Positions 14,188 to 22,916 of a stretch of 64,000 nucleotides of DNA are shown piece after piece; the stretch's first letter is position 1, and each line of letters opens with the position of its first letter. Source of the DNA: Actinospica robiniae DSM 44927 (lineage in GTDB: Bacteria; Actinomycetota; Actinomycetes; Streptomycetales; Catenulisporaceae); the NCBI RefSeq assembly GCF_000504285.1, contig NZ_KI632511.1, positions 3,035,372 to 3,099,371 of the forward strand, read 5' to 3'. A model generated the notes under the pieces. It had not been told where the DNA came from and made no database searches. It saw only the letters and a program-made list of their open reading frames with translations. A program made the translations under genes and the position numbers.

Positions 14188-16020
14188 GTGGACCGTTACC
14201 CGCCCATCGCCGATCACGGCCTGATCGGCGACCTGCAGACCGCCGCGCTCGTCACCTCCCAGGGCGTGGTGGACTGGTTCGCCGCGCCGCGGTTCGACTC
14301 GCCGAGCCTGTTCGCCGCGCTGCTCGACCACGACGGCGGCGGGTACTTCCGGCTCAGCCCGGAAGGCCCCGGCACCACCGCGGCGCAGCTCTACTACCCG
14401 GACACGTCGGTGCTGGTCACGCGCTTCACCACCGAAGACGGCATCGGCGAGGTGATCGACTGGATGCCCGCCGACCGCAAGGCGGTGGCCACCGAGCGCC
14501 ACACGCTCTTCCGCGCCGTCCGGGTGGTGCGCGGGACCATGCGCTTCAGCCTGGAGTGCCGCCCGCGCTTCGACTACGCCCGCGGCAGGCACGAGCTCGA
14601 CCTCAAGCCCGACGTGGCGGCCTTCCACGCCCAGGGGATGACCGCGTTCCTGCAGGGCACCCATTTCCCGCTGGAACGCGACGGCGACGACGTGCACGGG
14701 GAGACCGTGCTGAACGAGGGCGAACTGGCCGCGGTGGTGTTCACCGTGGACGGGGCCGACGCGACGCCGCCGGAGCCGCTGAGCGTGGAGCGGATCTCCG
14801 AGATGCTGTGGGACGAGATCGACTACTGGCAGAAGTGGGTGCGCACCTCGACCTACTCCGGCCGGTGGCAGTCCATGGTCGCGCGGTCGGCCGTCACGCT
14901 CAGGCTGCTGACATACGCGCCCACCGGAGCCCCCGTCGCGGCCGCGACGATGGGCCTGCCGGAGCAGGTCGGCGGCGAACGCAACTGGGACTACCGCTAC
15001 ACCTGGGTGCGCGACGGTTCCCTGTCGGTGCGCGCCCTGCTCGACCTCGGCTACGTCGAGGAGGCCACGGCGTTCGTGCACTGGCTCGCCGAGCGCCTGC
15101 GCGAGAGCGAGGGCCGCAACGGCGAGCCGCTGCAGATCATGTACCGCGTGGACGGCGACCCGCACCTGACCGAGGAGATCCTCGAGCACTTCGAGGGCTA
15201 CCGTGGATCGGCGCCGGTGCGGGTGGGCAACGCGGCCTCGGACCAGCTCCAGCTCGACATCTACGGCGAGGCGCTCTACGCGCTCGCCCAGGGCCGCGAG
15301 ATCGCGAAGGGGTCGAGCTACCGCGGCTGGAAGTCCATGGCCCGGACGCTGGACTGGCTCGTCGACGCGTGGGACCGGCCGGACGAGGGCATCTGGGAGA
15401 CCCGCGGAGGCCGCAAGGACTTCACCTACAGCCGGGTGATGTGCTGGGTCGCCTTCGACCGGGGGATCCGGCTGGCCACCGAGTTCGCCCTGGCCGGTGA
15501 GATCCCCCGGTGGACCGAGGCCCGCAACACCATCCGCGACCAGGTGATGGAGCGCGGCTGGAGCGAGAAGGAGAACGCCCTGGTCCAGCAGTACGGCGGG
15601 GATGTGCTGGACGCCTCGCTGCTGCTCATTCCGCGGGTGGGGTTCCTCGCGCCCGGCGATCCGGCCTGGCTTTCCACCCTCGACGCGATGGAACGCAAGC
15701 TCGTCTCGGACAGCCTCGTCTACCGCTACGACCCCGCGGCCTCGCCGGACGGGCTGCGCGGTTCCGAGGGCACCTTCAGCCTGTGCAGCTTCCTCTACGT
15801 CGACGCGCTCGCGCAGTCCGGGCGGCTGGCTCCGGCCCGGTACGCGTTCGAGAAGATGCAGACCTACTGCAACCATGTCGGTCTGTTCGCCGAGGAGATC
15901 GGCCCGCGCGGCGAGCAGCTGGGCAACTTCCCGCAGGCGTTCACCCACCTCGCCCTGATCATGGCCGCGAGTACGCTCGACGAGGCGCTGGACACCGCGG
16001 CGCGCCGAGGCCGGCTGTGA
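14188..16020 (+). CDS. GH15 family glycoside hydrolase (glucoamylase/trehalase type)
   Basis: The open frame extends upstream, but family similarity begins at GTG 14188 (VDRYPPIADHGLIGDLQTAA, the standard N-terminus of actinobacterial GH15 enzymes), with GGGAG upstream. The product has 610 residues and no signal peptide. An N-terminal beta-sandwich (1 to about 240) precedes the (alpha/alpha)6 catalytic barrel with ERNWDYRYTWVRDGSL and EEILEHFEGYRGSAPVRVGN, regions that hold substrate contacts and a catalytic acid. Mycobacterial members are trehalases; others cut alpha-glucans. A cytoplasmic enzyme releasing glucose is inferred. It overlaps the next gene by 4 bp (GTGA), so the two are probably coupled in translation. 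Confidence 0.85.
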   Translation: MDRYPPIADHGLIGDLQTAALVTSQGVVDWFAAPRFDSPSLFAALLDHDGGGYFRLSPEGPGTTAAQLYYPDTSVLVTRFTTEDGIGEVIDWMPADRKAVATERHTLFRAVRVVRGTMRFSLECRPRFDYARGRHELDLKPDVAAFHAQGMTAFLQGTHFPLERDGDDVHGETVLNEGELAAVVFTVDGADATPPEPLSVERISEMLWDEIDYWQKWVRTSTYSGRWQSMVARSAVTLRLLTYAPTGAPVAAATMGLPEQVGGERNWDYRYTWVRDGSLSVRALLDLGYVEEATAFVHWLAERLRESEGRNGEPLQIMYRVDGDPHLTEEILEHFEGYRGSAPVRVGNAASDQLQLDIYGEALYALAQGREIAKGSSYRGWKSMARTLDWLVDAWDRPDEGIWETRGGRKDFTYSRVMCWVAFDRGIRLATEFALAGEIPRWTEARNTIRDQVMERGWSEKENALVQQYGGDVLDASLLLIPRVGFLAPGDPAWLSTLDAMERKLVSDSLVYRYDPAASPDGLRGSEGTFSLCSFLYVDALAQSGRLAPARYAFEKMQTYCNHVGLFAEEIGPRGEQLGNFPQAFTHLALIMAASTLDEALDTAARRGRL

Positions 16021-16946
16021 CCGCGCAGCCGCTCGACGAGCGCGAGTTCCGGGTGCTCTACCAGCGTCTGCGCGACGGCAACCCCTGGGGTCCGGAGGAC
16101 CGGCGCGGGGCGCTGAACCATCTGATGGCCGAGCAGGTGCGGGCCGCCGCGGCCCTGGTGCGCACCGGGCGCAGCGTCTCGCTCGCGGCTCCGGTGCAGA
16201 CCCGGCCGACCCGGGACGGCCGTGACCCGGCCCGGCACGAAATCATCGGGCCGGGCGCGGGCGGGGCCGCCGATCACGGGCTGGACTTCGGCCTGGACCG
16301 CATCGCGTTGAACGTGCACGGCGACGTGGACAGCCACATCGACGCGCTCTCGCACGTGATCTTCGACCGCACGCTCTACAACGACGTGCCAGGTGGCTCG
16401 ACGGAGGTGATCGAGTCCTCGCCGCTGTCCATCGCCGTCGCGGCCGACGGGATCGTCGGCAGGGGTCTGCTCCTCGACATCCCAGCATTGCGCGGCGTGC
16501 GCTGGCTCGAACCGGGTGAGCAGGTGATGGCCGAGGATCTGCTCGCGGCCGAACGGGCGCAGGGCGTGGAGATGTCCGCGGGCGACCTGCTCTTCATCCG
16601 GGTCGGGCACCGGGCCCGACGCGACGAGCTCGGTCCGTGGGACGCGGCTCGGCACCGGGCCGGGCTGCATCCGGCGGCGCTGGAGCTGCTCGCCGAGCGG
16701 CGGATCGCGGTGCTGGGCAGCGACGGCAACAACGACGTGGCCCCGAGCGGTGTCGAGGGCGTCGACTTCCCCGTGCACGTCCTCGCCATCAACGCGCTCG
16801 GCCTGCACATGCTGGACTACCTGCAGTTCGAGGAGCTGCTGCCTCTGCTGGCCGAGGAAGGACGCTGGTCCTTCCTGTGCGTCGTCGCGCCGCTCCGGGT
16901 CGCCAACGGCACGGGCTCGCCGGTGAATCCAATAGCCATCCTGTGA
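16017..16946 (+). CDS. Cyclase family protein (kynurenine-formamidase-like metal hydrolase)
   Basis: A 309-residue protein starting with GTG at 16017 inside the GH15 stop region. It matches the cyclase/formamidase superfamily: HGDVDSHIDALSHVIFD corresponds to the metal-binding HxGTHxDxxxH motif, and GRGLLLDIPAL plus LLFIRVGH are also family features. Known members hydrolyse N-formylkynurenine, isatin or cyclic amides using Mn or Zn. Here the companions are sugar and redox enzymes, so a lactone or other small cyclic substrate is possible, but this is inference. Co-directional with the GMC gene 33 bp downstream. Confidence 0.75.
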   Translation: MTAQPLDEREFRVLYQRLRDGNPWGPEDRRGALNHLMAEQVRAAAALVRTGRSVSLAAPVQTRPTRDGRDPARHEIIGPGAGGAADHGLDFGLDRIALNVHGDVDSHIDALSHVIFDRTLYNDVPGGSTEVIESSPLSIAVAADGIVGRGLLLDIPALRGVRWLEPGEQVMAEDLLAAERAQGVEMSAGDLLFIRVGHRARRDELGPWDAARHRAGLHPAALELLAERRIAVLGSDGNNDVAPSGVEGVDFPVHVLAINALGLHMLDYLQFEELLPLLAEEGRWSFLCVVAPLRVANGTGSPVNPIAIL

Positions 16947-16979
16947 GCAGCGCCGTGCACCACCCGAGAGGAACCTGAC

Positions 16980-22015: not shown

Positions 22016-22061
22016 GCCCCACCCATACGCGACCTCAACCACGCACTGATGGGAGAACACG

Positions 22062-22916
22062 TTGACCAGCAACAAGAACGGCTCGGCTAGCGCGAGTGGA
22101 GCGCAGCCGATGACGCTGCCGCTGCTGCGCGGTCAGAAGGCGCTGGTGACCGGGGCGAACTCGGGCATCGGCAAGTCCACCGCCATCGCCCTCGGCCGGG
22201 CCGGCGCCGACGTCGTGGTCAACTACGTCGCAGGACCCGAAGACGCGGAAGCGGTGGTCAAGGAGATCGAGTCCTTCGGCGTGCGCGCCTACGCCGCCCA
22301 GGCGGACGTCTCCGACGAGGATCAGGTCGATGAGATGTTCGCGCACATGGTGTCCGAGTTCGGCACCATCGACGTCCTCGTGGCCAACGCCGGGCTGCAG
22401 CGCGACGCCTCGGTCACCGACATGACGCTGGCCCAGTGGCAGAAGGTCATCGACGTCAACCTCACCGGCCAGTTCCTGTGCGCCCGCGCCGCGGCCAAGG
22501 AGTTCCTGCGCCGCGGCCTCGTGCCCGAGGTCTCCCGCTGCGTCGGCAAGATCATCTGCATGAGCTCGGTGCACCAGATCATCCCCTGGGCCGGCCACGT
22601 CAACTACGCCTCGTCCAAGGGCGGCGTGCTGATGATGATGCAGACCCTGGCCCAGGAACTCGCCCCGCACGGCATCCGCGTCAACGCCGTCGCGCCCGGC
22701 GCCATCAAGACGCCGATCAACCGCGACGCCTGGTCGAGCCCGCAGGCCGAGGCCGAGCTGCTGAAGCTCATCCCCTACCGCCGCGTCGGCGAGCCCGACG
22801 ACATCGCCAACGCCGTCACCGTCATGGCCTCGGACCTGATGGACTACGTCGTCGGCAGCACCCTGTTCGTCGACGGCGGCATGACGCTGTTTCCGGGCTT
22901 CGCCACCGGCGGCTGA
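22062..22916 (+). CDS. SDR family oxidoreductase (glucose-1-dehydrogenase-like)
   Basis: A 284-residue short-chain dehydrogenase read from TTG 22062, just after GGGAGAACACG. It has the NAD(P) motif TGANSGIG, the VANAGLQ loop, catalytic Ser in CMSSVHQ and YASSKGG (Tyr/Lys), and the C-terminal VDGGMTLFPGF end. Closest in look to glucose 1-dehydrogenase-type SDRs. It is the last gene of the co-directional block that starts with GH15, which fits oxidation of a sugar released there, but the substrate is not determined from sequence. Confidence 0.8.
   Translation: MTSNKNGSASASGAQPMTLPLLRGQKALVTGANSGIGKSTAIALGRAGADVVVNYVAGPEDAEAVVKEIESFGVRAYAAQADVSDEDQVDEMFAHMVSEFGTIDVLVANAGLQRDASVTDMTLAQWQKVIDVNLTGQFLCARAAAKEFLRRGLVPEVSRCVGKIICMSSVHQIIPWAGHVNYASSKGGVLMMMQTLAQELAPHGIRVNAVAPGAIKTPINRDAWSSPQAEAELLKLIPYRRVGEPDDIANAVTVMASDLMDYVVGSTLFVDGGMTLFPGFATGG

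Follow-up and report, generated by a model that had tools for sequence, protein, structure and literature searches.

What function, if any, unites six consecutive genes of unlike families that share one strand of an actinobacterial chromosome? The question is raised by positions 14188-22916 of a 64,000-nucleotide stretch of Actinospica robiniae DSM 44927 (the whole stretch analyzed is termed the window), which lies in a single-contig genome of 9.9 Mb, with the block itself at 3.05 Mb. Frame statistics and gene calling place six genes on the + strand. In order, their products are a GH15 enzyme, a hydrolase of family PF04199, a flavoenzyme of the GMC family, NDH-2 (a type II NADH:quinone dehydrogenase), a membrane protein with an internal duplication and a short-chain dehydrogenase/reductase (SDR) that resembles glucose 1-dehydrogenase. 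A first-pass annotation of the sequence had proposed a pathway that oxidizes a sugar derived from trehalose or glucan and delivers the electrons to the respiratory chain. This proposal is supported by the present analysis, in that the same genes recur in relatives beside those of terminal oxidases, gluconokinase and aldose 1-epimerase; the terminal oxidase, which is missing from the block, had not been part of the earlier reading. The block probably represents the substrate-oxidizing half of a cytoplasmic sugar-to-oxygen module.

The comparative evidence was drawn from 119 genomes, 22 of which contributed, in a search with the GMC sequence, 25 main rows with an identity of 77% or higher; two of these rows are parts of split genes. 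The list used for co-occurrence comprised 26 rows at this threshold, i.e., the 25 main rows and one fragment (in G028), further fragments and weaker rows being left out. The neighborhoods of the main rows, together with those of certain weaker rows and 31 loci in named records, were then searched for the block genes. Genes were called in 62 loci, including the window, that remained after two loci (L077 and L082) had been dropped as exact duplicates of others (L063 and L065). The 48 loci considered below, again including the window, carry a GMC gene at least 70% identical to that of the block. Four genomes contribute two loci each, and the relatives include Streptomyces-type actinobacteria.

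In terms of gene order, the six-gene arrangement, whose conservation among relatives the first-pass annotation had treated as decisive for its proposal, was not conserved: the 48 loci display 24 signed orders of the core genes, and the order of the window appears once. A functional link is argued here because the gene set has been retained even though its order has been lost. A clustered relative of the GH15 gene is present in 41 of the 48 loci (36-75% identical over the aligned part), a PF04199 gene in 37, the SDR gene in 32 and an NDH-2 gene in 14. Moreover, the set reaches past the block, such that cytochrome bd, gluconokinase, aldose epimerase and zwf (glucose-6-phosphate dehydrogenase) genes recur alongside it in relatives. 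Subunits I and II of cytochrome bd are the commonest of these additional neighbors (one of each was scanned, matching PF01654 and PF02322, respectively). A bd gene was detected in 41 loci; a type of subunit I gene denoted here bdA-star is present in 33, the canonical cydA in six and zwf in nine.

No locus carries both the SDR gene and zwf (Fisher p 7e-6), and none carries both bdA-star and canonical cydA (p 4e-4), both values being uncorrected for descent. In each pair the predicted role is apparently kept and the gene exchanged. As judged by clustering and length, gluconokinase occurs in 22 loci, in seven of which it is fused to aldose 1-epimerase. The sole fusion scanned (L078:7459-8892) reached 174.5 bits as a gluconokinase, against a cut-off of 113.75, with an epimerase domain behind. 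A count of aldose epimerase in 29 loci was rejected, since the underlying cluster mixes gluconokinases, epimerases and fusions; its division by length and sequence start gave 15 gluconokinase, 10 aldose 1-epimerase and seven fusion loci. These neighbors suggest a likely flux from glucose and its anomers through gluconolactone and gluconate to 6-phosphogluconate.

The association extends to whole genomes. Among the 119 examined, the GMC gene (at least 77% identity) was found in 22, the SDR gene in 33 and bdA-star (at least 70%) in 31, and all 22 of the GMC-bearing genomes also contain both the SDR gene and bdA-star (Fisher p 4e-16 to 4e-17, uncorrected for descent). An SDR, GMC or GH15 gene is located within 15 kb of 26 of the 32 bdA-star genes, versus none of 14 less similar bd genes, and 32 of 34 SDR genes are linked to another member of the set. 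Similarly, 18 of the 24 GH15 rows of at least 70% identity, among the matches listed, are linked.

The genome of A. robiniae itself contains four genes for bd subunit I. One of these, at 2.96 Mb (L106), belongs to a cydABDC cluster with a divergent GH15 paralogue nearby; another, at 1.59 Mb (L109), forms part of an NDH2-bdA-star-bdB-star cluster, again with a divergent GH15 paralogue nearby and one small gene between. The two paralogues are 69 and 68% identical, respectively, to the GH15 protein of the window. In a second genome of the same genus (G001), PF04199, GH15 and cydABDC-type genes lie divergent beside a GMC-NDH2-SDR group. The module thus seems to be split across loci in the A. robiniae genome.

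Versions of the gene set were also encountered well beyond close relatives. A phylum-wide search detected a GMC match at 1e-100 in 11 of 396 genomes, five of which had already been sampled and six of which were new. One genome that is related at the phylum level only (G473) has zwf-GH15-GMC-NDH2-bdA-bdB, all in the same orientation and separated by short gaps, and another locus (L168) combines zwf, GH15, GMC and an NDH2-like gene. Plasmid records with a GMC match numbered 93, and 16 regions were examined, two of them lacking annotation in reach. An 11-kb stretch of a Streptomyces canus plasmid (strain NBC_01002) encodes GH15, a cyclase, gluconokinase, GMC, CydBA, an NDH-2-like protein and an SDR, and the full actinobacterial set was recovered from Embleya by our own gene calling. 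On four proteobacterial plasmids (L154, L155, L163 and L164) the GMC relative lies beside heme-copper oxidase genes, and in three of these DoxX, cupin-type, SMP-30 and VOC genes also adjoin it. A GMC-DoxX-cupin-SMP-30-VOC series is accompanied by genes for oxidases, GH15 and SDRs in both Caballeronia pSBC2-4 and Paraburkholderia pBIL, the cupin position in the latter being annotated as hypothetical. The Roseomonas GMC gene overlaps a CyoA-like gene, a CyoB-like gene comes next, and no GH15 is in reach. In Lichenicola the arrangement is oxidase genes-GMC-GH15-SDR. The cyanobacterial plasmid of Trichormus carries cox genes, GMC and two cyd pairs. Other regions display parts of the set: SDR and glucoamylase-type enzymes in Acidiphilium and two Mesorhizobium plasmids; SMP-30, GMC, GH15 and SDR genes in Gloeothece; zwf after GMC in Aureimonas; and GMC with an SDR and glucosidases in Azospirillum. 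On a Mesorhizobium plasmid (L161:10626-19512), a PQQ-dependent dehydrogenase of the glucose/quinate/shikimate family and pqq genes were also observed beside GMC.

Gene content, linkage, co-occurrence, family membership and a gene fusion are documented by these data, and from the enzyme families a chain of reactions may be inferred. The GH15 enzyme would release glucose from trehalose or a glucan, and the SDR would oxidize beta-D-glucose to gluconolactone, yielding NADH. The lactone would then be opened to gluconate, probably by the PF04199 hydrolase, and in many relatives gluconokinase would phosphorylate the gluconate to 6-phosphogluconate. NDH-2 would move the electrons of NADH into the quinone pool, while the GMC enzyme would oxidize glucose or an oxidized product, also reducing quinone. 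Finally, a linked quinol oxidase would reduce oxygen, this being cytochrome bd in actinobacteria and probably a bo3-like enzyme in some proteobacteria; in A. robiniae this last step would be placed at other loci, two of which lie beside the GH15 paralogues. Proton pumping is not known for either NDH-2 or cytochrome bd, and such a chain would therefore use reserve sugar and oxygen fast and with a low energy yield, perhaps under stress. The 48 loci also carry genes for a Na/H exchanger (24 loci), a DUF389 protein (18), a ClC channel (13) and, in some, glutamate decarboxylase, neighbors that hint at such a stress role.

A wider proposal is put forward more tentatively, and we hold it at somewhat less than even. 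The actinobacteria, proteobacteria and cyanobacteria may possess versions of an intracellular respiratory module that is complete in itself and has not been described before, in which stored glucan or trehalose would be burnt via the SDR with NDH-2, and via a parallel quinone-reducing GMC enzyme, into a dedicated but interchangeable quinol oxidase. This would serve as an emergency sink for electrons and oxygen that bypasses the proton-pumping chain.

The individual gene products are in keeping with these assignments to differing degrees. The GH15 protein (14188..16020, + strand, 610 aa) matches PF00723 with 237 bits and the TREH_N family PF19291 with 69 bits. It would be expected to free glucose from trehalose or an alpha-glucan, either substrate being possible; its score with the archaeal NCBIfam model of TreH1 (NF041084) was 369 bits, below the cut-off of 820. 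No export signal was seen by eye. The following gene (16017..16946, +, 309 aa) encodes a metal-dependent hydrolase of Pfam family PF04199, which we propose to be a lactone hydrolase; the opening of a lactone by this protein is plausible. Its closest solved structures are 5ibz, a protein of unknown function, and isatin hydrolases, and the metal motif H-x-D-x-x-x-H is invariant across the 17 aligned sequences. In 34 loci, out of the 37 with both genes, it precedes GMC in the same orientation by at most 1.5 kb. Structure prediction gave a mean pLDDT (predicted local distance difference test) of 64.7, and a PDB search with the model added little beyond the sequence search.

The GMC flavoenzyme (16980..18560, +, 526 aa) comprises the N- and C-terminal Pfam domains of the family, with the flavin adenine dinucleotide (FAD) motif at the extreme N-terminus. 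It is proposed to be a sugar dehydrogenase, acting on glucose or gluconate, that reduces quinone. Among solved chains it is closest to glucose dehydrogenase (6a2u/8hdd) and the large subunit of fructose dehydrogenase, while the C-terminal part resembles pyranose oxidases. His462 and Asn505 align with the His/Asn pair of GMC enzymes. Four cysteines (Cys198, 201, 209 and 482) are conserved in at least 97% of 51 sequences. The cysteines of the FAD-dependent glucose and fructose dehydrogenases are presumably ligands of an iron-sulphur cluster; Cys198, 201 and 209 are conserved here, yet the spacing is unlike that of 6a2u. A search of the whole genome revealed no gamma-subunit gene (PF13618) beside the GMC gene of the block. 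The two PF13618 matches lie at 2.598 and 9.274 Mb, and the former (at 2.60 Mb) adjoins a different GMC gene, 29% identical to that of the block. In two of the sampled loci (L041 and L042) the GMC gene is split into two frames, and fragments of an extra GMC copy were observed near an NDH2-bdA-star-bdB-star cluster (L050, in the same genome as L066).

The quinone-linked NADH dehydrogenase named in the first-pass annotation was confirmed: the NDH-2 protein (18575..19927, +, 450 aa, PF07992) aligns over residues 15-430 with the NADH:quinone reductase chain 9mqy at 405.6 bits. In several of the 14 loci that carry it, the NDH-2 gene adjoins bd genes, as it also does at L109 in A. robiniae itself. 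The SDR (22110..22916, +, 268 aa, with an alternative TTG start at 22062) has glucose 1-dehydrogenases as its closest solved chains (1gee, 228 bits; 1rwb; 1gco). Alignment to 1gee indicates that the catalytic Ser-Tyr-Lys residues and a glucose dehydrogenase-like active-site stretch are kept. In the 284-aa version the protein scored 225 bits with the glucose 1-dehydrogenase model NF005559 (cut-off 215) and 273.3 bits with NF006493 (cut-off 420). Its start is uncertain, as the alignments of relatives begin anywhere between residues 2 and 21 of the protein read from the TTG codon.

The remaining protein (20015..22015, +, 666 aa) resembles ABC-2 permeases and consists of a membrane unit that is present twice in tandem. 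The duplication noted in the first-pass annotation stands, the halves being 39% identical over 314 columns (E 1e-63); membership in the pathway probably does not. Copies in three other genomes (G115, G020 and G100, in the last of which the gene is split) have unrelated surroundings, and the protein is probably a passenger that lies outside the system. Pfam gave no match for the protein itself; of three single-unit relatives scanned, two match PF12698, below the cut-off. The structure predicted for the duplicated protein had a mean pLDDT of 58.1. Remnants of the gene are found near the SDR gene at one locus (L058). A 713-aa open reading frame at 19924-22065 was rejected as a shadow frame, the true gene being that at 20015-22015.

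In its layout, the block is indeed composed of six co-directional genes, as gene calling and a Pfam scan (GH15 with TREH_N; PF04199; GMC N and C domains; Pyr_redox_2; SDR) both indicate. The short gaps described earlier were likewise found, while of the supposed 4-bp overlaps a single one is genuine, that between the GH15 and PF04199 genes (16017-16020). The other intergenic gaps measure 33, 14, 87 and 46 bp, the last being 94 bp if the SDR begins at ATG 22110. A scan of the block detected no terminator-like match between its genes (one, at 20732, is intragenic) and no sigma-70-like promoter, which does not prove that the genes form an operon. Upstream, positions 10950-12821 encode a pectate lyase PelN-like protein with a CBM2 domain (NF041899, 646 bits; cut-off 740). 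Downstream of the SDR gene, on the same strand, a PAS-GGDEF protein is encoded at 23005-25197, for which tblastn showed no counterpart in the GMC neighborhoods of relatives.

Several observations weigh against the proposed module. In A. robiniae no bd gene is located next to the block, two of the four bd loci (L107 and L108) have no adjoining GH15, and a search for promoters of the sigma-B, -E and -R types gave no enrichment. Seven of the 48 loci lack a bd gene, seven have neither the SDR gene nor zwf, and 6 of 32 bdA-star and 2 of 34 SDR genes are unlinked. Among the GH15 matches listed, 33 of 150 rows are linked: 79 rows, unevenly chosen below 57% identity, were tested fully and account for all 33, and the other 71 were tested against bd and SDR genes only, with none linked. 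GH15 is a larger family than the linked set. The gene swaps partly track lineage: canonical cydA comes from four genera, and the nine zwf loci belong to Kitasatospora, Arthrobacter, Kribbella, Nocardioides and Pseudonocardia. The CyoA/CyoB-like proteins of one proteobacterial plasmid (L163) best match cytochrome o families, below their cut-offs. Two plasmids (L151 and L159, i.e., Caballeronia pSBC2-3 and Paraburkholderia PREW-6R) carry GMC with no GH15 or oxidase in reach, and GMC relatives at 44-51% identity occur in other settings, e.g., in Ensifer (46%).

Such settings bear on the rival explanation that the GMC enzyme is an oxidase with hydrogen peroxide as its product, or that its substrate is neither glucose nor gluconate but, for example, another lactone or a keto-sugar, with the glucose genes serving a neighboring pathway. 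Four other actinobacterial loci from the phylum-wide search (L166, L167, L170 and L171), partly on short contigs, combine GMC with an SDR (44-46% identical) and have no GH15 or oxidase in reach, so that the GMC enzyme may have another substrate. According to BLAST, a PF04199-like gene is present in three of these and an SMP-30-like gene in two; the co-existence of both in L167 and L170 implies that the PF04199 enzyme may not be a gluconolactonase. The C-terminal likeness to pyranose oxidases points in the same direction. Against this reading, the solved proteins most similar to the GMC enzyme are dehydrogenases of glucose and fructose, and genes for quinol oxidases repeatedly accompany it. We regard this explanation as somewhat unlikely. 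An island of stress genes, in which enzymes of separate pathways were gathered because the same stress (acid, salt or desiccation) induces them all, with no single chain, is unlikely. It is favored by the exchanger, DUF389, channel and decarboxylase neighbors, but plain co-regulation predicts neither the swaps of role for role (SDR for zwf; the starred bd genes for canonical cyd) nor the gluconokinase-aldose epimerase fusion, and GMC again lies next to oxidase genes in proteobacteria and a cyanobacterium. Identification of the GMC enzyme as the mycofactocin dehydrogenase MftG, and of the SDR as a mycofactocin-coupled enzyme, is very improbable. Both match the corresponding NCBIfam models (TIGR03970, 61.6 bits; TIGR03971, 179.3 bits), and MftG ties a GMC enzyme to respiration (PMC11778925). 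The scores nevertheless fall far under the cut-offs of 387.45 and 300, and MftG was rejected as an assignment for the GMC protein. Moreover, the radical SAM synthesis enzyme TIGR03962, the sole biosynthesis family searched, reaches at best 136.6 bits in this genome (G000) against a cut-off of 265, which among the 22 GMC genomes is attained only in G001 and G031. Finally, that the genes are chance neighbors without any functional link is scarcely credible: the exact order of the window is indeed confined to one of the 48 loci, but the co-occurrence across genomes and the persistence of linkage through 24 different orders argue otherwise. The sugar-to-oxygen module is preferred to these rivals.

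If correct, this reading would describe a portable bacterial kit that couples reserve carbohydrate to oxygen reduction while bypassing the proton-pumping complexes. GMC flavoenzymes and SDRs that form an as yet unnamed group would acquire a role; the reading would also suggest a reason for the presence of several bd oxidases in some actinomycetes and point to new cytoplasmic glucose-oxidizing enzymes. The swaps of SDR for zwf, and among bd, cyd and heme-copper oxidases, would furnish precise and testable predictions of role.

Among known systems, acetic acid bacteria and pseudomonads oxidize glucose directly in the periplasm, by a route in which a glucose dehydrogenase dependent on PQQ (pyrroloquinoline quinone) or FAD passes electrons through ubiquinone to a bo3 or bd oxidase. 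The proposed module would share with it the conversion of glucose to gluconate, the transfer of electrons to quinone and a quinol oxidase, and gluconokinase downstream. In contrast, no export signal was discerned here by eye, the first dehydrogenase would be an NAD-type SDR acting with NDH-2, a GH15 fuel enzyme belongs to the set, and the oxidase is genetically linked in many relatives. The FAD-dependent glucose dehydrogenase of Burkholderia and fructose dehydrogenase consist of GMC, gamma and cytochrome c subunits; they include the closest solved relatives of the block GMC, with the His/Asn pair aligned, whereas the block has no gamma-subunit gene and a different spacing of cysteines. Bacillus glucose 1-dehydrogenases are the best solved relatives of the SDR, whose active-site stretch is kept; unlike these, the SDR belongs to a strongly conserved group (77-90% in relatives) tied to a gene set. 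In full-text searches of the literature no description of the assembled gene set was found, and the nearest system was mycobacterial MftG (PMC11778925). The authors conclude there from respirometry that electrons pass from this GMC flavoenzyme to the respiratory chain. The block GMC would resemble it in feeding respiration. Unlike MftG, the block GMC scores below the threshold of that family, and the one mycofactocin synthesis enzyme searched for is absent from the genome. Each part of the block belongs to a known family, and these comparisons suggest that the assembly, while akin to the chains of direct glucose oxidation, is new as a combination.

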